NCBI RefSeq assembly: GCF_020736365.1
Contig: NZ_CP085988.1
Location: 1,618,001 to 1,682,000, forward strand
DNA from: Clostridium sp. M62/1
GTDB taxonomy: Bacteria; Bacillota; Clostridia; Lachnospirales; Lachnospiraceae
Length of the DNA: 64,000 bases
Direction: 5' to 3'
Within the stretch, counting starts at the first letter, position 1. Each line of letters begins with the position of its first letter. Under the pieces are notes generated by a model. The model did not search any database, was not told the origin of the DNA, and saw only the letters and a list, made by a program, of their open reading frames with translations. Made by a program: the position numbers and the translations under genes. Below, piece after piece: positions 55,734-64,000 of the stretch.

Positions 55734-56153
55734 TTGCCCAACAAGGTGGCTGTAGATCAACGAGCTAAAGATATGATCATCGAACTTGGTTTATTGATTC
55801 GTGATTGCCGTGGAACGCTCAGCCAATCTCAATTAGCCAAAAGGGTTGGCCTGCCCCGTTCCAACATGAAATACATAGAGGATGGTGTCAACGCTCCGAC
55901 AGCGGATGTCTATGACAAGCTGATTAAGGAGCTAAAGCCGGATTTGCAGACGCACCACCACATGGATCATTTGTATATGGCGATTCGGAAAGTTCCTCCG
56001 CCCGATGTTTGCCGAACCATCACACAAAACAAGGATTTAGTGGATGCAATGAGGAAGTTAGAAGGTTGTAATCTGACTCCCGACCAGATTGAAAGTGTTT
56101 CCGCCCTGTTTGCGTCTTTTCAAAAGAATAGAGAAGGAGAACCCATAAAATGA
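55734..56153 (+). CDS. HTH (XRE/Cro-CI) controller protein of the RM operon
   Basis: A 139-residue protein with an N-terminal Cro/CI helix-turn-helix (about residues 15-65; LSQSQLAKRVGLPRSNMKYIE). A C-terminal helical part, about 70-138, shows no known domain. The start is TTG at 55734, supported by a near-perfect AAAGGAGGTG seven bases ahead; the first in-frame ATG at 55773 would cut into the HTH. It overlaps hsdM by four bases (ATGA), so it is translationally coupled and would work like C proteins that delay restriction until methylation is established. Which genes it represses is inferred from the palindrome in its promoter. Confidence 0.85.
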   Translation: MPNKVAVDQRAKDMIIELGLLIRDCRGTLSQSQLAKRVGLPRSNMKYIEDGVNAPTADVYDKLIKELKPDLQTHHHMDHLYMAIRKVPPPDVCRTITQNKDLVDAMRKLEGCNLTPDQIESVSALFASFQKNREGEPIK

Positions 56154-58288
56154 GAGATAAGTATTTTTACGAAGTAATGTTTGATGATACGTCCATTGAC
56201 GTAAGCAAGGAAGTCGGATTGGTCTGGTCCATTGCCAACTCGCTCCGTGGTGCCTATACCTCGGATAAATATAAGGACGTTATTATCCCCATGGTCATCA
56301 TCCGCCGGTTTGAGTGCGCTTTGGAGGAAACCAAAGATGCAGTTGTGGCAAAGTACAAGCAGAACCCTAACCTCCCAGCTGCGCTTCTTTGCCAGGTGTC
56401 CAAATATCCCTTTTACAACACCAATGAATTTACCCTGAAACGCCTTCTGGATGACAGCGACAGCATTGCGTCCAACCTCAAGTCTTACATTGAAGGCTTT
56501 TCTGCTAACATCCAACTGATTCTAGAAAAGTTGCTGAAATTCAGCACCCAGATCGACAAAATGGATAAGAGCAACCGCCTTTACAGCGTGGTTAAAAAGT
56601 TCTCGGATTTGGATTTGTATCCCGCCCATGTGGATAGCATGAAGATGGGCTACATTTTCGAGGATATTATCCGCCGCTTTTCTGAAAACGCTGAGGCCGG
56701 TGATCACTATACGCCCCGTGAAGTAATTCGTCTGATGGTCAATGTACTGCTGGCAGAGGGCTGCAACGACCTGTTGACGGATGAGGGTAAAATTGCCACC
56801 GTACTGGATGCTGCCTGTGGTTCGGGCGGTATGCTGTCCACTACCTATGATTTCCTGCGCCGCAAAAATCCCTATGTGGATGTGCGCTTGTTTGGACAGG
56901 AAATCAATCCCGAATCCTACGCCATTTGTCTGGCAGATATGCTCATCAAAGGCCAGGATGTGAAAAACATTATGGGTGATGAGGAAGCTAACACCCTGAA
57001 AACGGACTGCTTCCCGGATCAGAAGATGCGGCTGGTGATTATGAATCCCCCGTTTGGTACACCCTGGGGTGGCAAAGATGCACCGGAAGGACAAGAGAAG
57101 AAAGTCCGTGAGGAAAACAAGAAGGGCGGACGGTTTGAACATGGTCTGCCTGGAACGGGTGACGCCCAGCTGCTATTCATGCAGCACGCCATCAATAAGC
57201 TGGATGAGAAAAACGGGCGTGCAGCGATCATTACCAATGGCTCGCCTCTTTTCTCTGGCGGAACCACCAGCGGTGAAAGCCAAATTCGGCGCTGGATGCT
57301 GGAGGAAGATTTAATTGAAGCCATTATTGCCCTGCCTACCCAGCTTTTCTATAACACCGATATCGGCATTTATATCTTTATTCTGTCCCGCAATAAGCGC
57401 CCTGACCGCCGTGGAAAGGTGCAGCTGATCAATGCGGTGGATATGTGGAAACCCCTTCGCAAATCTTTGGGCAAAAAACGTCGGGAAATTGACCGGGATA
57501 GCATGAAAAAAATCACCGAGCTGTACTCCAACTTTGAGGAAAACCAGTATTGCAAGATTTTCCCCAACGAGGAGTTTATGTACAAGGAGTATGCGGTCTA
57601 TCAGCCGTTACAGCGCCGGGGTGTGCTGGATGCGGAAAGTATTGAGCGACTGCGGACCAGCAGCTACTTCACCAGTAACTCCAGCATTTTCAATGAGACG
57701 GATTTTGAGCAGTTGAAAGAGATGAACCCCCGCAGTGCTGCCGACGAGAAGAAATACCAGAAATATCTGGCGGGGCAGCAGTTTGTAGCGGATGTATTGA
57801 ACATTCTGGAAGCCAACCGTTCTGACCAGGTGTTTATGGATTATGGCGAGTTTGAAAAGTATCTGAAATCACTGCTGGGCAAGGTCGAGGGGATGTCTGC
57901 CAGCCGGTTGACTGGCATTGCCATGGTGCTGGCGGTGATGGACAAAACCGCCGTGGTGCAAAAAGACCGAAAAGGCGAAATAATCAAGGACACTACCACT
58001 AAGGATACCGAGATCATCAAGCTCACCCAGGACCCAGAGAAATATTTTGAGGCGGAAGTGTATCCCCATGTACCGGATGCTATCTGGGCCTATGAATTTG
58101 ACCCGGAGAAAAAGGAGAGCGCTACCAATAAAGAAAAACTGGGCGCAGAGTTCCCGTTTACCCGATTCTTTTACGAGTACAAGGAGCCGGAAAAGGCAGA
58201 TAATCTGCTGGCACAGTTTATGGAACTGGAAAAATCCCTCTCCGAAAAAATTGCAGCATTGCAGGAAAGCGAGGGAGAGCAATGGTAG
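56150..58288 (+). CDS. hsdM: Type I restriction-modification methyltransferase subunit
   Basis: The N6-adenine methyltransferase subunit that, with HsdS, protects host DNA. The 712-residue protein has an N-terminal helical HsdM domain (about residues 15-160), then motif I DAACGSGGMLSTTY (about 222-235) for SAM binding and motif IV NPPFGTPWG (about 301-309) for catalysis. The C-terminal region is longer than in classic 500-residue HsdM, with a charged extension from about 480 onward (KYLAGQQFVADVLNILEA and later). AAGGAGAAC precedes the ATG. It overlaps hsdS by seven bases. Base composition is close to the host average. Confidence 0.95.
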   Translation: MRDKYFYEVMFDDTSIDVSKEVGLVWSIANSLRGAYTSDKYKDVIIPMVIIRRFECALEETKDAVVAKYKQNPNLPAALLCQVSKYPFYNTNEFTLKRLLDDSDSIASNLKSYIEGFSANIQLILEKLLKFSTQIDKMDKSNRLYSVVKKFSDLDLYPAHVDSMKMGYIFEDIIRRFSENAEAGDHYTPREVIRLMVNVLLAEGCNDLLTDEGKIATVLDAACGSGGMLSTTYDFLRRKNPYVDVRLFGQEINPESYAICLADMLIKGQDVKNIMGDEEANTLKTDCFPDQKMRLVIMNPPFGTPWGGKDAPEGQEKKVREENKKGGRFEHGLPGTGDAQLLFMQHAINKLDEKNGRAAIITNGSPLFSGGTTSGESQIRRWMLEEDLIEAIIALPTQLFYNTDIGIYIFILSRNKRPDRRGKVQLINAVDMWKPLRKSLGKKRREIDRDSMKKITELYSNFEENQYCKIFPNEEFMYKEYAVYQPLQRRGVLDAESIERLRTSSYFTSNSSIFNETDFEQLKEMNPRSAADEKKYQKYLAGQQFVADVLNILEANRSDQVFMDYGEFEKYLKSLLGKVEGMSASRLTGIAMVLAVMDKTAVVQKDRKGEIIKDTTTKDTEIIKLTQDPEKYFEAEVYPHVPDAIWAYEFDPEKKESATNKEKLGAEFPFTRFFYEYKEPEKADNLLAQFMELEKSLSEKIAALQESEGEQW

Positions 58289-59589
58289 ATTTTATGACTT
58301 GGGAAGAAGAAAATGGACACACATTTAAAAAGAAAAAGTTAAAATACATAGTATCTACTCCGATAACAGATGGACCTCATGAAACTCCCGAATTATTAGA
58401 TGAAGGAATTCCTTTTTTATCTGCTGAATCTGTAAAAAACGGCATACTTGATTTCAATTATAAAAGAGGATATATTTCACTATCTGATCATAAATTGTTT
58501 TGTAAAAAAGTTAGGCCACAAAAAAATGATATATTTATAGTGAAATCTGGAGCGACAACCGGGAACTGCGGCATAGTGACTACCGATGAAGAATTTAGCA
58601 TATGGTCTCCATTAGCACTCATTCGTTGTGATAATATTTCTGTTTTACAGAAATTTATATACTACTACTCTCTTTGCTATTCTTTCACACACCAAGTAGA
58701 GCAATCTTGGTCTTACGGTACACAACAAAATATCGGAATGGGTGTATTGGGCAATTTGTATGTAACTCTACCATCCTCAAACGAGCAACAATCCATCGTT
58801 GATTACCTCGACAAAGAATGTGCCCAGATTGACAGCATTGCCGCAGATTTGGAAAAACAGATTGCTCTTTTGCAGCAATATAAAAAATCCCTGATTACTG
58901 AAACGGTAACCAAGGGGTTGGATAAGTCTGTGCCGATGAAAGACAGCGGGGTTGAGTGGATTGGGAAAATTCCTGAGCATTGGGATGTAGAACCTATCAA
59001 ATATCGTGTCACATTCCACAATGGCGACAGAGGAGAAAACTATCCCTCTAAAAGCGAATTACAATCTGAAGGAATACCATTCATAAATGCAGGTCATCTT
59101 GAGGGTGATGGCCTTAATATGGATAATATGGATTATATTTCTGAAGAAAAGTATCGCATAATGGGCGGCGTTAAGCTTAGACCGGGAGATATCTTATATT
59201 GCTTGCGAGGAAGTGTCGGGAAAAATGCCATTGTTGATATGAATCAGGGAACGGTTGCTTCATCATTAGTGGCAATTCGCAGTGTGAGAATCTTAGCCGA
59301 GTATCTTTATTATTGCTTGAACTCTCACATAGAGGAAGTTCAGCGATATTTGTGGGATAATGGTACCGCACAACCAAATTTATCAGCAGATAATCTAGGA
59401 AAGTACAAGTTTTGTATCCCGCCGGTCGAAGAACAAAAGGCTATTGTTAAATACTTAAATAACATTTGCTCTCAAATTGACAATTTAGTTATTGGGAAAA
59501 AGAAGCAACTCTCTACTATTCAGCAACACAAAAAATCTCTTATCTACGAATATGTCACTGGCAAAAAACGAGTAAAGGAGGTACGGTGA
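58282..59589 (+). CDS. hsdS: Type I restriction-modification specificity subunit
   Basis: A 435-residue DNA-recognition subunit with two target-recognition domains (about residues 10-165 and 215-375). Each is followed by a conserved helical spacer (EQQSIVDYLDKECAQIDSIA, then EEQKAIVKYLNNICSQIDNL). The two spacers are clearly related, both containing a QIDS/N pattern and an HKKSL- or YKKSL-type segment. The recognition domains are much more AT-rich than the flanking hsdM and hsdR, as usual for exchanged specificity domains. One intact hsdS is present, with no inverted partial copy or recombinase in the window, so phase-variable shuffling is not indicated here. Recognition sequence cannot be predicted. 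Confidence 0.95.
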   Translation: MVDFMTWEEENGHTFKKKKLKYIVSTPITDGPHETPELLDEGIPFLSAESVKNGILDFNYKRGYISLSDHKLFCKKVRPQKNDIFIVKSGATTGNCGIVTTDEEFSIWSPLALIRCDNISVLQKFIYYYSLCYSFTHQVEQSWSYGTQQNIGMGVLGNLYVTLPSSNEQQSIVDYLDKECAQIDSIAADLEKQIALLQQYKKSLITETVTKGLDKSVPMKDSGVEWIGKIPEHWDVEPIKYRVTFHNGDRGENYPSKSELQSEGIPFINAGHLEGDGLNMDNMDYISEEKYRIMGGVKLRPGDILYCLRGSVGKNAIVDMNQGTVASSLVAIRSVRILAEYLYYCLNSHIEEVQRYLWDNGTAQPNLSADNLGKYKFCIPPVEEQKAIVKYLNNICSQIDNLVIGKKKQLSTIQQHKKSLIYEYVTGKKRVKEVR

Positions 59590-59590
59590 G

Positions 59591-62500
59591 ATGGCAATCA
59601 AAGCAGGACAATTAAAAGAACGGACAGATTATCAGGCATACATTCTGGAAATGTTGCGGGAGGAAAACGGCTATCAGGTGCGTCCCTCTACCGCTTACGA
59701 TCCCGGCTACGGTATGGATGTGGAGCTGCTGTTCTCCTTTTTGCAGGCAACCCAGCCGGATACATTGGCACGGCTGGAAAAACTCTATGGCGATAAGACC
59801 CGTCAGACCATCCTCAACTACATCAACAATGAGGTCAACAAGAAAAGCCGCAGCCTGCTGGATGTACTGAAGCACGGCGTGGAGTTTGACAACGGCGTCT
59901 CTCTAACCCTTATGTACCGAAAGCCTGCCACCACCTTCAACCAAAAGGCGGAGGCGCTGTATCAGCAGAATGTACTCTCGGTGATGGAGGAAGTCTGGCA
60001 CAAGGAGGGCGAGCGCATTGACCTTGTAATCTTCCTCAACGGTATTGCCATTTTTACCTTTGAACTGAAATGCAACACCAGCGGACAGAACTATGAGGAT
60101 GCGATCCGTCAGTATAAGTTTGAGCGGGATTACAAGACTCGTCTGCTGAAATTCAAGGCGGGCTGCCTAGCCCACTTTGCTATGGACTTGAACGAAGTCT
60201 ATATGTGCACCAATCTGAAAGGAAAATCTTCCTTTTTCCTGCCGTTCAATAAGGGCTGTGGTGTTGGAATTCACTCTGGTAAGGGCAACCCCCACAACGA
60301 AAACGGCATCAATGTTTCTTATATGTGGGAAGATATCCTCAAAAAAGATACGGTGCTGTATCTGATTGATAAAATCATTTTCCTGCAAAAAGAAACCAAG
60401 AAAGACCCGGATACCGGTAAGCGTGTTACCAAGGAAACGCTGATTTTCCCCCGGTATCACCAGTTCAATGCCGTGCGCAAGTTGGTGGCAGACGTCGTAG
60501 AACACCATAGCGAGAAAAATTATCTGATTGAGCACTCGGCGGGCAGTGGCAAAACCAATACCATTGCATGGTTGGCCCACCGTTTTGCCTCCTTGCACGA
60601 CAGGGAAAACAAAGTCATTTTTGATACGGTTTGCATCATCACTGATCGTATCGTGGTAGACCGTCAGCTTCAGAATGCCGTACTGTCACTGGAGCACAAG
60701 GCCGGTCTGATCAAGGTCATGGATGAAAAATGCACGTCCAAAGATCTTGCGGATGCCCTCAACGGCAATACAAAAATTATTGTGACTACCATCCACAAGT
60801 TCATGTACATTCAGGAACTTGTGCAGGAGCTGAAAAGCAAGACTTTTGCCGTAATCATCGACGAGGCGCATTCCTCTACCGCCGGAACTGCCATGGAAGC
60901 GGTGACATATGCTCTTTCAGAGAGCCGCAAACTGAGCGAGGCCACCCCTGTTGATGTGTCAGAAGAAGAAAAATCTATGGGCGATATTATCGAGGACGAA
61001 ATTGCCCGTAGCGGAAAGCAGCCCAATGTCTCCATGATTGCCTTTACCGCAACTCCGAAACCGACTACCTTGCAGTTGTTCGGCTGTCTGAACGAAGAAG
61101 GAAAAAAGGTTGCCTTTGACCTATATTCCATGAAGCAAGCGATTGAGGAAGGCTTCATTCTGGATGTGCTGCAAAATTATGTGACCTATAAGACTTATTT
61201 TGAAATTAATAAGGCTATTGAGGACGATCCAGAACTGGAAACGATTGCCGCAAAGCGTAAGATTGCCAAGTATATTGAACTGCATGATACAAACATTGCC
61301 CAGAAAGTTGAGATCATTATTGAGCATTTCAAAAACAGAATCATGCAGGAGTTAGGCGGCAAAGCAAAAGCCATGGTCATTACTTCGTCACGGCAGGCAG
61401 CAGTCAAATACCGGAACGAGTTTGAAACCTATATTTCCAAGCATGGGTACACGGGTATTCGTGCACTGGTGGCGTTTTCAGGCAAGGTCTCTCTGGACGG
61501 CCACGAATACACCGAAGCGGTGATGAACGGCATTAAGGAAGAAGATTTGCCGGAAGTGTTTGACAGCAACAGCTATCAGGTACTGTTGGTGGCGAATAAG
61601 TATCAAACAGGCTTTGATCAGCCGAAGCTCTGTGCCATGTATGTGGACAAACGTCTGCGGGGAGTCAATGCTGTGCAGACCCTTTCTCGCTTGAACCGTA
61701 TTTGTGCGCCCTATGATAAGAAAACCTTTGTGCTGGATTTCAAAAATGAATATGAAGATATTCAAGCGTCCTTTGCCCCATTCTATACTGAAACGATTCT
61801 AAATGAGACGATCACCCCTTCGGATATTCGAACGGTGGAAGCTCAGGTGGATCAGTATAATTTCCTGGATATTGACGATATTGAGGAATTTAACGGATAC
61901 CTGTATCAGGATAAACGAACCTCTAAAGAAAAGGCTCGAATGTGGGCGTTGCTGGATAAATCCCTGCAAATCATCAATCGCCACCCGGAACTGGAAAAGC
62001 AGGAAATCCGTGCGACGATCAAGCGTTTCTTGCGTTTTTACAGTTTCCTGATTCAGGCAACCTGCTTTGAAAGCGTGGATCTGCACAAGAAGTACAATTT
62101 CCTTTCATACCTGGTTAAAGAAATCGAAGTGGGCAGCGGTGGAAATGATTTTGATATTGCGGACAAAATCACTGCCTCCAATTTCCGTCAGAAAAAGACC
62201 GGGGAAAATACACACGAAATTGAATCCAAGCCGGAGGTCAGCCTTCCGACACCCAATGAGGTCTTTATGGATGAAGCCGTGAAAAAGAAGCTGTCCGAGA
62301 TCATCGACGAGATCAATGCAGCGTATAACAAAAACTTTGATATCGGCGTGGCCTCCAAGTCCGCTCTGCAAATGAGGGACATTTTGCTGAAGAATGGACA
62401 TCTGAGGGACAGTGCACGGAATAACTCGCTGAAAGACTTCCGCTTCGCCTATTTTGACGCTGTACAGGATGCTCTGATTGCCGGGTATGAGCAGAACCAA

Positions 62501-62596
62501 GATTTCTTCGCACTTTTGCTGGATAATGACGAGAAGAAGCGTGAACTGATGCAGGTGTTCCTGGAGGATGTATATAAGCATTTGCGTAGTGATTAA
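59591..62596 (+). CDS. hsdR: Type I restriction endonuclease subunit
   Basis: The ATP-dependent translocating nuclease. The 1001-residue protein has an N-terminal PD-(D/E)xK nuclease (DLVIFLNGIAIFTFELKC with catalytic Glu-Leu-Lys near residue 157). Two helicase domains follow: Walker A SAGSGKTNT near 317, motif II DEAHSS near 425, TATPKP near 488, and ATNKYQTGFDQP-like motif V. A helical C-terminal part contacts HsdM. AAAGGAGGTACGG precedes the ATG and starts two bases after hsdS. All motifs are intact, so the system should cut unmodified DNA. A weak hairpin follows. Confidence 0.96.
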   Translation: MAIKAGQLKERTDYQAYILEMLREENGYQVRPSTAYDPGYGMDVELLFSFLQATQPDTLARLEKLYGDKTRQTILNYINNEVNKKSRSLLDVLKHGVEFDNGVSLTLMYRKPATTFNQKAEALYQQNVLSVMEEVWHKEGERIDLVIFLNGIAIFTFELKCNTSGQNYEDAIRQYKFERDYKTRLLKFKAGCLAHFAMDLNEVYMCTNLKGKSSFFLPFNKGCGVGIHSGKGNPHNENGINVSYMWEDILKKDTVLYLIDKIIFLQKETKKDPDTGKRVTKETLIFPRYHQFNAVRKLVADVVEHHSEKNYLIEHSAGSGKTNTIAWLAHRFASLHDRENKVIFDTVCIITDRIVVDRQLQNAVLSLEHKAGLIKVMDEKCTSKDLADALNGNTKIIVTTIHKFMYIQELVQELKSKTFAVIIDEAHSSTAGTAMEAVTYALSESRKLSEATPVDVSEEEKSMGDIIEDEIARSGKQPNVSMIAFTATPKPTTLQLFGCLNEEGKKVAFDLYSMKQAIEEGFILDVLQNYVTYKTYFEINKAIEDDPELETIAAKRKIAKYIELHDTNIAQKVEIIIEHFKNRIMQELGGKAKAMVITSSRQAAVKYRNEFETYISKHGYTGIRALVAFSGKVSLDGHEYTEAVMNGIKEEDLPEVFDSNSYQVLLVANKYQTGFDQPKLCAMYVDKRLRGVNAVQTLSRLNRICAPYDKKTFVLDFKNEYEDIQASFAPFYTETILNETITPSDIRTVEAQVDQYNFLDIDDIEEFNGYLYQDKRTSKEKARMWALLDKSLQIINRHPELEKQEIRATIKRFLRFYSFLIQATCFESVDLHKKYNFLSYLVKEIEVGSGGNDFDIADKITASNFRQKKTGENTHEIESKPEVSLPTPNEVFMDEAVKKKLSEIIDEINAAYNKNFDIGVASKSALQMRDILLKNGHLRDSARNNSLKDFRFAYFDAVQDALIAGYEQNQDFFALLLDNDEKKRELMQVFLEDVYKHLRSD

Positions 62597-62705: not shown

Positions 62706-64000
62706 TTATTCACTTTTCTCGCGTTGTGTCAAGGAATTGTACTCCTTTAATTTGTTTTCTCGTACCTTTGTCTCGTATTGATTTGCCTTTTTTTCCAGAA
62801 ACTGTACGAGAAAACGCTTTCCAACCGATACGGTATCAATCGTAGAAATTATTGCTAATATAGTTGCAATAATTAATGCAATTGTAAATAGCGTGTTTGA
62901 ATGTGTAGTAAAGGAAAAAACTGTGCCCAAAACACCTAAAACCGATAATGCAAACATGACAACGGATAATAGTTTCTTACGAGGAGAAATCCATTTTTCA
63001 CGAGCTTGTTTCGCATATGAATCGGCTGACTTTCGATTCTTCTCAGCTTGCATTTTCCGCTGTTGTTCTTCAGATTCTTTTTGCTTGCGAAGTTCACAAG
63101 TGATATTTGACAATTCCTGAGTATGTTTTTGCGAAGCTCTTTCCATTTCTTTGTTTAGTTGGTTCAATTCGATTTGATGCCGTTTTTCTCTTTCGTTTAG
63201 TTCAGTTTGGTGGCGGGCTGTTTCTTCAGCTATTAATTGTTCTTCATATTTCCTTTGAGCTTCTTGTACAGATGTTTCGGTGATGCTATCAACCTCCCCA
63301 AAAGAGCCTAACCAGATTTCATTCCGAAATACCCGGTCAGCACGTAACGCCACAACTTGTTCTGGTGTCAACTTGCCAGATAGCTTAAGTTTTTGGAGAA
63401 CCTCATCGACTTTTTTCATTATTTCTGGGATGGGTTGTAATGCACAATACGCATTCTTTAGTAATTCGCTTTCTGGCAAATTATTTACCTCACCACATTT
63501 TATCCAAGTAATTGCTGATAAATTACTATCAGAAATAATTAACTGAAAGGTTCTCTTGCTTATGTTCTCTTTATAGTATGTGTTAAAAGCTCTTGTAAAA
63601 TCATAATTATTTGTGACAAAAATAAAACGGCATGTTTCAATATCGTTACTTGTATAATCTCCTCTAAGGCGATGAATGGCCAGTGCGGATTTTACGTCAT
63701 TTTCCAAATTGGCTTCTGTATAATGCGGAGTATTATCTTTAATAAACTGCTTGAGTTCTGTCTCTCCTAACATTTTTTGTTCATCTACGGAACCATCGTC
63801 TTTTGTGTCATATGGAGGAATATCGTGTTCAACTATTCCAAAACGGCTTTCCAATTTACTTGGTAGTAATTTAATCTCTCTATCGACGTCATTGGAGTTG
63901 TAGTTGTGAGCGTTTAAACCGTCTAGAGTACGATAGCCATTGGATATTGCCGTTGGACTCAAAGAGTACTTATATGCAGATAAAATATCAATTATTTCCT
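62706..64000 (-). CDS. PIN-like nuclease with coiled coil and two TM helices, N-terminus outside window
   Basis: The frame is open to the right edge, so the protein is longer than the roughly 430 residues seen. Numbering from the TTG at 63962 (not necessarily the start): residues 60-235 contain RFIFVTNNYDF, LSAITWIKCGE, NAYCALQPIPEIMKKVDEVL and GKLTPEQVVALRADRVFRNE. This pattern (FVTNN, xxLxWLK, AYAALxP, LRxxxxAR) I recognise from a PIN-like domain family in large uncharacterised proteins, but I could not check it. Residues 240-335 form a charged coiled coil (HQTELNEREKRHQIELNQLN). Two membrane helices follow (about 345-385), then a charged C-terminus. The gene is AT-rich beside its neighbours and converges on hsdR. 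A membrane-anchored nuclease in defence is inference. Confidence 0.6.
   Translation of the reverse strand, partial: EIIDILSAYKYSLSPTAISNGYRTLDGLNAHNYNSNDVDREIKLLPSKLESRFGIVEHDIPPYDTKDDGSVDEQKMLGETELKQFIKDNTPHYTEANLENDVKSALAIHRLRGDYTSNDIETCRFIFVTNNYDFTRAFNTYYKENISKRTFQLIISDSNLSAITWIKCGEVNNLPESELLKNAYCALQPIPEIMKKVDEVLQKLKLSGKLTPEQVVALRADRVFRNEIWLGSFGEVDSITETSVQEAQRKYEEQLIAEETARHQTELNEREKRHQIELNQLNKEMERASQKHTQELSNITCELRKQKESEEQQRKMQAEKNRKSADSYAKQAREKWISPRKKLLSVVMFALSVLGVLGTVFSFTTHSNTLFTIALIIATILAIISTIDTVSVGKRFLVQFLEKKANQYETKVRENKLKEYNSLTQREKSE

Follow-up and report, generated by a model that had tools for sequence, protein, structure and literature searches.

What does the AT-rich gene encode that runs off the edge of a 64,000-nucleotide stretch of the Clostridium sp. 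M62/1 genome (the window; G000:C1:1618001-1682000), directly beside a type I restriction-modification (RM) operon, and what might it do there? A preliminary description, made from the window alone, had read its truncated minus-strand frame as a PIN-type nuclease domain followed by a charged coiled coil and two membrane helices. The frame at 62706..63998 is indeed open up to the window edge, and the genome sequence completes it to a gene of 698 amino acids (G000:C1 1680706-1682802, minus strand) with an ATG start and no internal stops. The gene is also AT-rich as described: its GC content is 36.0%, as against 46.6% in hsdR, 52.8% in the XRE gene that lies behind it, and 56.3% across the Mob-VapE stretch of the flanking element. 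The computations reported here reveal a PIN fold in which the active-site positions are conserved, a predicted two-helix membrane anchor joined to it by a helical coil, occurrence on mobile elements, and repeated adjacency to defense genes. From these sequence-based features, we propose that the gene probably encodes a single-gene, membrane-tethered candidate PIN endoribonuclease that serves as an anti-phage or anti-mobile-element effector.

PIN superfamily proteins are defined by three conserved acidic residues and a fourth motif, T/S-x-D/N, and the 698-residue protein has the fold, the three acids, and the fourth motif. D227, E269, D369, T397, and N399 are all present in each of 25 diverse aligned rows; the first of these, D227, lies beyond the window edge, after what is probably a winged helix and a stretch of helical structure. 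In the AlphaFold2 (AF2) model as aligned by VIA-align, the PIN domain forms a central block into which a single insertion is set, between E269 and D369. Chains aligned to this block fill the top of both VIA-align lists, with generic transmembrane (TM) and coil rows lower down, and VapC-type chains are the best structural matches in both Foldseek and VIA-align, with EXO1 chains lower. A non-nuclease fold was also searched for and none was found. The motifs on which the preliminary PIN assignment was based occur in the order given (FVTNN, residues 395-399; LSAITWIK, 428-435; AYCALQP, 451-457). That description had named a non-nuclease fold or a lack of conserved acids as grounds for dropping the assignment; the fold matched is that of a nuclease and the acids are invariant in those 25 rows.

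PIN membership is claimed here at the level of the fold only, with no curated Pfam or NCBIfam PIN family matched above its cut-off. At E values of up to 1, neither Pfam nor NCBIfam assigned the window protein to a PIN family; an Enterococcus relative matched PIN_3 at 21.1 bits, under the cut-off of 27, and the six other members scanned alongside it had no such match. Outside of noise in the coil and TM region, the window protein found no match in Pfam, NCBIfam, or PADLOC; in PADLOC-DB (2023), the matches comprise only LeoC, Csx18, and JetC2 in that same region, at E 0.004 or worse. Sequence searches of the PDB with the 698-residue protein or query A3 likewise returned coil and TM matches only, and a viral structure library gave no match under E 0.07.

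Residues 510-629 form a single helix in the AF2 model that runs from the coil through the first membrane helix. Hydropathy analysis assigns exactly two TM segments beyond residue 450 to 24 of 25 diverse rows, and one to the remaining row; in a 57-row alignment of the close family, two segments are found in 50 rows and one in 7, with an extra, earlier hydrophobic segment in 4. The two membrane helices first described are thus borne out. Because basic residues flank this hairpin and its loop is short, an N-in/C-in topology is likely, which would place both the PIN domain and the basic tail in the cytosol. The coil is a different matter. A charged helical stretch is present close to the length of about 95 residues initially given, but it is not conserved, with P0009 and other relatives lacking much of it. 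Since coil length varies among relatives, the coil is more likely a spacer than a specific sensor, and the sensing role at first assigned to it finds no support.

To place the protein in the context of its relatives, 7,994 candidates sharing the most words were scored from a protein search space of 5.8 billion, which gave 127 relatives at E≤1e-3. Among the 120 listed, two carry source names ("hypothetical protein" and "DUF3784 domain-containing protein") and two carry a precomputed PF20990 match. The family represents Bacillota, Bacteroidota, Pseudomonadota, and Actinomycetota, and across these four phyla is annotated "hypothetical protein" in the records viewed. Members are found on plasmids, integrative elements, and prophages. 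Plasmid copies occur in 11 of 72,556 records, an identical 11 with three different queries, in Enterococcus (six), Klebsiella, Pantoea, Sporosarcina, Hymenobacter, and Arthrobacter, the last found by tblastn only and absent from the alignments. In one Enterococcus faecium record (L039, NZ_CP110295.1), an IS256-like element interrupts the gene close to its end; five other E. faecium plasmid records contain intact copies. A blastn search with the Klebsiella gene, which would miss more distant copies, identified the gene in 2 of 5,426 Escherichia coli genomes, in both cases within a P2-like prophage: one copy (L068:11496-14516) lies between an Ogr-like gene and late control gene D, a position not among the hotspots named in the available passages of the literature, and the other lies between the tail sheath and tail-fiber assembly genes. 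Query A1 identified six loci in genome_contigs, where the first scan gave none; a scan of IMG/VR yielded no confirmed match, and none of 19 members matched PHROGs. Three further relatives (G1145:C36, G1279:C10, and G1239:C1) are C-terminal-only or interrupted, the first with two internal stops, and are possibly decaying copies.

We analyzed gene context in those drawn genomes that encode a full-length family member, 11 in all, including that of the window and excluding the three C-terminal relatives above. Clear defense neighbors are found in seven of these genomes, or eight if an HNH protein with a weak restriction endonuclease match (G1127) is counted, so that the homologs are not scattered without defense context. 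The window gene adjoins type I RM, and in G1392 (L056) the PIN gene lies 71 bp behind the hsdR of a complete hsdMSR operon on the same strand. In G234, PbeA lies 5.5 kb from the PIN family gene, together with the start of a PbeC/DndD-like ATPase; in G390, an AbiLi/AbiLii-like pair is 41 bp upstream on the same strand (the AbiLii match is weak, E 8e-6); and in G470, RloB/AbiLii is 371 bp upstream. GmrSD_N and HEPN genes are near the PIN family gene of G1206, as are an Eco57I-type methylase and a type IIG-like helicase in G1307. Beside Pbe-type genes, a 928-residue protein (L016:3043-5829) matches an RNA polymerase alpha C-terminal domain and sigma70 region 4; in the same locus, a 799-residue protein (L016:10663-13062) is encoded 39 bp upstream of the PIN family gene on the same strand and has no Pfam (E≤0.001) or PADLOC match.

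Other loci extend this pattern. Among the six genome_contigs loci, that of Oribacterium (L004, 7437-19273) harbors, in a row, PglZ, the PIN family gene, a HEPN_Swt1-SNF2 helicase, and a sacsin-like ATPase protein, which looks like a compact PglZ-type defense system with a built-in PIN nuclease, and a Cap4 nuclease lies about 4 kb from the PIN family gene in L006. On the Hymenobacter plasmid, a divergent DNA methyltransferase lies 198 bp from the PIN family gene, in a locus that also has helicase, ATPase, TIR, and CHAT genes; on the Sporosarcina plasmid, nucleotidyltransferase, ThiF, Mov34, and SAVED genes follow 1.2 kb on, a group that we read as a CBASS set.

Taken together, these features make the protein almost certainly a membrane-anchored nuclease, very probably with a role in defense or in conflict between elements and, with a little less assurance, an RNase rather than a DNase. 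Since no separate antitoxin gene is evident, membrane sequestration and the N-terminal winged-helix/helical module would keep the enzyme harmless. Infection would be the trigger for release, sensed through genome entry at the membrane or through phage anti-restriction; the released enzyme would then cleave RNA and so halt phage production, its likeliest targets being tRNA and other structured RNAs, as for VapC. If true, this would shed light on how a cell can keep a toxic nuclease silent without an antitoxin. A broader scheme is possible, and we offer it tentatively: a widespread, unnamed class of membrane-stationed PIN nucleases may guard other defense systems as exchangeable "backup effectors" beside RM, Pbe, AbiL, GmrSD, PglZ, and CBASS loci. 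They would be freed when phage injection or anti-restriction is sensed and would then attack, at the site of entry, either tRNA or the nucleic acid coming in.

A number of observations weigh against the proposal of a defensive PIN endoribonuclease. Foldseek alone returns E values of 0.25 or worse, with probabilities of up to 0.97 for the PIN rows, and because these E values are weak, the case for the fold rests on VIA-align and residue conservation. The family is rare: in overlapping genome draws that each count the window's own genome, members were found with query A1 in 4 of 392 genomes of the order, 6 of 397 of the family, and 2 of 391 of the class, and matches with query A3 in 8 of 398 of the phylum. 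No match was found in 50,697 phage records with two different members as queries, although the two copies in E. coli are prophage-borne. Among the drawn genomes, G343 (a 6.5-kb contig with a Tn916-type integrase) has no recognized defense neighbor, and G538 and G1006, with one neighbor each scanned singly, gave no recognized defense match; the same is true of L003, L005, L007, and L008, whose flanks were inspected by eye, and no named defense neighbor is found in five of seven plasmid loci viewed (Klebsiella, Pantoea, two from Enterococcus, and Arthrobacter). Finally, the control for the context analysis is small and itself contains ATPase matches to PADLOC models. It consists of 89 open reading frames (ORFs) of at least 150 residues within about 6 kb on each side of nine arbitrary places, one per genome in 9 of the 11, the control loci L065 (G390) and L066 (G1307) being too short and left out. 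At a PADLOC threshold of E≤1e-10, these ORFs match 29 families, and the 25 listed include the ATPase models mad3 (four members), AriA (three), AbiLi (one), and HEC-01A (one), along with helix-turn-helix models, E1-E2 models, mad8, subtilase, GlgB, and a CARF fusion; no RM family is among these 25 of 29. The 5-kb flanks of the PIN family comprise 65 ORFs from 11 loci and match 136 PADLOC families, of which the 25 listed are all type I RM. One control ORF (L057:8257-9408; G000:C1, about 1.008 Mb) encodes an ATPase weakly similar to AbiLi.

The RM operon beside the window gene is intact, as first described: the XRE-HsdM-HsdS-HsdR genes (55734-62596) are uninterrupted ORFs with the expected Pfam domains, and hsdR converges on the PIN gene across a gap of 109 bp (Table 1). 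On its other side, 73 bp upstream and on the same strand, is an XRE gene with an HTH_3 match and no VapB family match, past which the element harbors matches to Mob_Pre (below cut-off), a CHC2 zinc-finger primase domain, VapE, and RhuM, as well as a serine recombinase named by eye. A related element in G349 (C12) shares 81% nucleotide identity with the window element over the Mob-VapE and XRE stretches (L002:13978-17698); this similarity stops just before the PIN gene, other genes follow, and the whole genome lacks a family match. In G1091 (C241), the similarity (83-87%) breaks off on the same side and gives way to other ORFs, and the ORF list contains no intact XRE frame. Because similarity to both related elements stops beside the PIN gene and they continue with other genes, the PIN gene is probably exchangeable cargo. 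In an empty-site comparison with seven relatives from the genus, the left and right flanking genes were nowhere adjacent.

Table 1. Features of the PIN gene and of the neighboring type I RM operon, in window coordinates
Feature	Position	Strand	Basis or remark
3' 430 codons of the 698-residue gene (winged helix-turn-helix [wHTH]-PIN-coil-2TM)	62706..64000	-	further 802 bp outside window
PIN domain, part in window (residues 269-436; whole domain about 220-436)	63495..63998	-	AF2 model and VIA-align
E269, second PIN acidic residue	63996..63998	-	invariant in 25/25 diverse rows
D369, third PIN acidic residue	63696..63698	-	invariant in 25/25 diverse and 104/104 close-family rows
T397-N398-N399, fourth PIN motif T-x-N	63606..63614	-	T and N invariant in 25/25
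W433, end of PIN block, within LSAITWIK	63504..63506	-	invariant residue
Charged coiled-coil helix, residues ~510-600	63003..63275	-	AF2 model; length varies among relatives
Predicted TM helix 1, residues 611-629	62916..62972	-	hydropathy
Predicted TM helix 2, residues 637-655, then basic tail	62838..62894	-	hydropathy
XRE-type regulator upstream of hsdM	55734..56153	+	Pfam HTH_31/HTH_3, below cut-off
hsdM, type I RM methyltransferase	56150..58288	+	Pfam/PADLOC matches
hsdS, specificity subunit	58282..59589	+	Pfam/PADLOC matches
hsdR, restriction subunit, convergent with PIN gene	59591..62596	+	Pfam/PADLOC matches

The location beside hsdR makes a guard of the PrrC type a serious rival, since two distant members, those of the window and of G1392, are directly adjacent to RM. 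Here the RM enzyme would silence the PIN nuclease, and a phage anti-restriction protein that disables RM would fire it as a second line behind HsdMSR. There is precedent in the nuclease PrrC, which a linked type Ic RM enzyme keeps silent and the T4 Stp peptide sets free (as given in passages of PMC2610378), and in PARIS, which is triggered by a phage anti-restriction protein (passages of PMC9122126). However, of the 11 drawn genomes, just two have type I RM next to the PIN gene, the others having different systems or none recognized there; the 698-residue protein has no evident RM-binding part; and the window gene is on the strand opposite to the RM operon. We therefore consider such a guard unlikely. 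Nor do these counts, or the related element of G349 that lacks the PIN gene, support RM as a dedicated partner. A nuclease positioned at the membrane might instead cut incoming phage DNA at the injection site, as SNIPE does, rather than act as an abortive RNase. The two would share the idea of an anchored nuclease, the modeled, probable winged helix could bind DNA, and SNIPE cuts injected phage DNA and becomes toxic when its anchor is removed (passages of PMC13190303); but SNIPE is a different protein, and the VapC-type chains that head the structural matches here, ahead of EXO1, are RNases. A DNA-cutting role of this kind is a minority prospect, if one of some weight.

The VapC-like fold, the 11 plasmid-borne members, and the close, codirectional XRE gene are each consistent with a VapBC-like toxin that stabilizes its plasmid or element and has no anti-phage role, with the XRE gene as antitoxin. 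That gene, however, looks like part of the element backbone, because the G349 element, in a genome without the PIN family, retains an XRE gene from that DNA family (L041:7363-8256), as does, by DNA similarity, G1091. The PIN protein is moreover about five times the size of VapC, with extra domains and an anchor, which leaves a stabilization toxin quite improbable. Fainter still is the prospect of a housekeeping enzyme of membrane RNA decay. RNase Y combines a membrane anchor, a coil, and an RNase fold, a design that the PIN protein parallels, but the very patchy distribution of the family (4 of 392 genomes of the order, own included, and 2 of 5,426 E. coli genomes) and its location on mobile elements and prophages make such a role hardly credible.

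The membrane-tethered PIN protein can be compared with several known systems. The matched VapC chains (PDB 3zvk and 5ed0) are about 130-145 residues long, to which the protein described here adds a probable winged helix, the E269-D369 insertion, the coil, and two TM helices. With 698 residues and no VapB-type partner recognized next to it, its neighbors being hsdR and the XRE gene, it falls outside VapBC as usually defined. Like PrrC, it would be an RNA-cutting effector encoded beside a type I RM operon, here in 2 of 11 genomes. PrrC differs in its ABC ATPase motifs and anticodon-nuclease triad (passages of PMC2610378); the 698-residue protein has no ATPase family match in Pfam or NCBIfam scans, and linkage to RM is not a general trait of its family. 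In phage P2, fun(Z), annotated as blocking T5, sits between G and FI, the same slot that a PIN family member occupies in P2-like prophages; Fun(Z) has no BLASTP or profile similarity to the PIN family, and thus independent genes share one slot. The E. coli homolog in this known prophage defense slot (L069:12001-13977) provides a directly testable case.

PIN effectors themselves have been noted before, beside Dnd modification genes (PMC10853773) and in conflict systems (PMC7159879), with other architectures in the passages available. A recent study (PMC13092281, DefensePredictor) states, in the passages available, that others had recently validated a PIN domain, and among its citations for earlier PIN or HipA validation are works on embedded defenses, E. 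coli prophages, and integrons; one of these cited works, above all that on E. coli prophages, may already contain the PIN family. The whole word "PIN" is absent from Rousset et al. (PMC9122126), and our literature searches, which covered open-license PMC papers, found no described system with this architecture, in agreement with the preliminary description. As described in the passages of that study, DS-5 is a validated PIN defense system that needs a second protein, whereas DS-3 works as a single PIN protein, has no cognate antitoxin, and depends on its catalytic residues for defense. The protein described here resembles DS-3 as a PIN protein with apparently no antitoxin gene and is set apart from it by that description, in which the DS-3 PIN domain is split between the N and C termini rather than forming a central block, as residues 221-436 do here. 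SNIPE (PD-lambda-1) is a nuclease anchored in the inner membrane, where the anchor prevents self-damage or self-cleavage (passages of PMC13190303); it differs in its GIY-YIG nuclease, DUF4041, and N-terminal anchor, and no GIY-YIG or DUF4041 Pfam match was found in the 698-residue protein at E up to 1. With the SNIPE anchor and the one-protein PIN system DS-3 both published, each half of a membrane-sequestered PIN RNase in defense is plausible. If defensive, the family would join the validated PIN effectors and add to them the membrane-sequestration logic of SNIPE.
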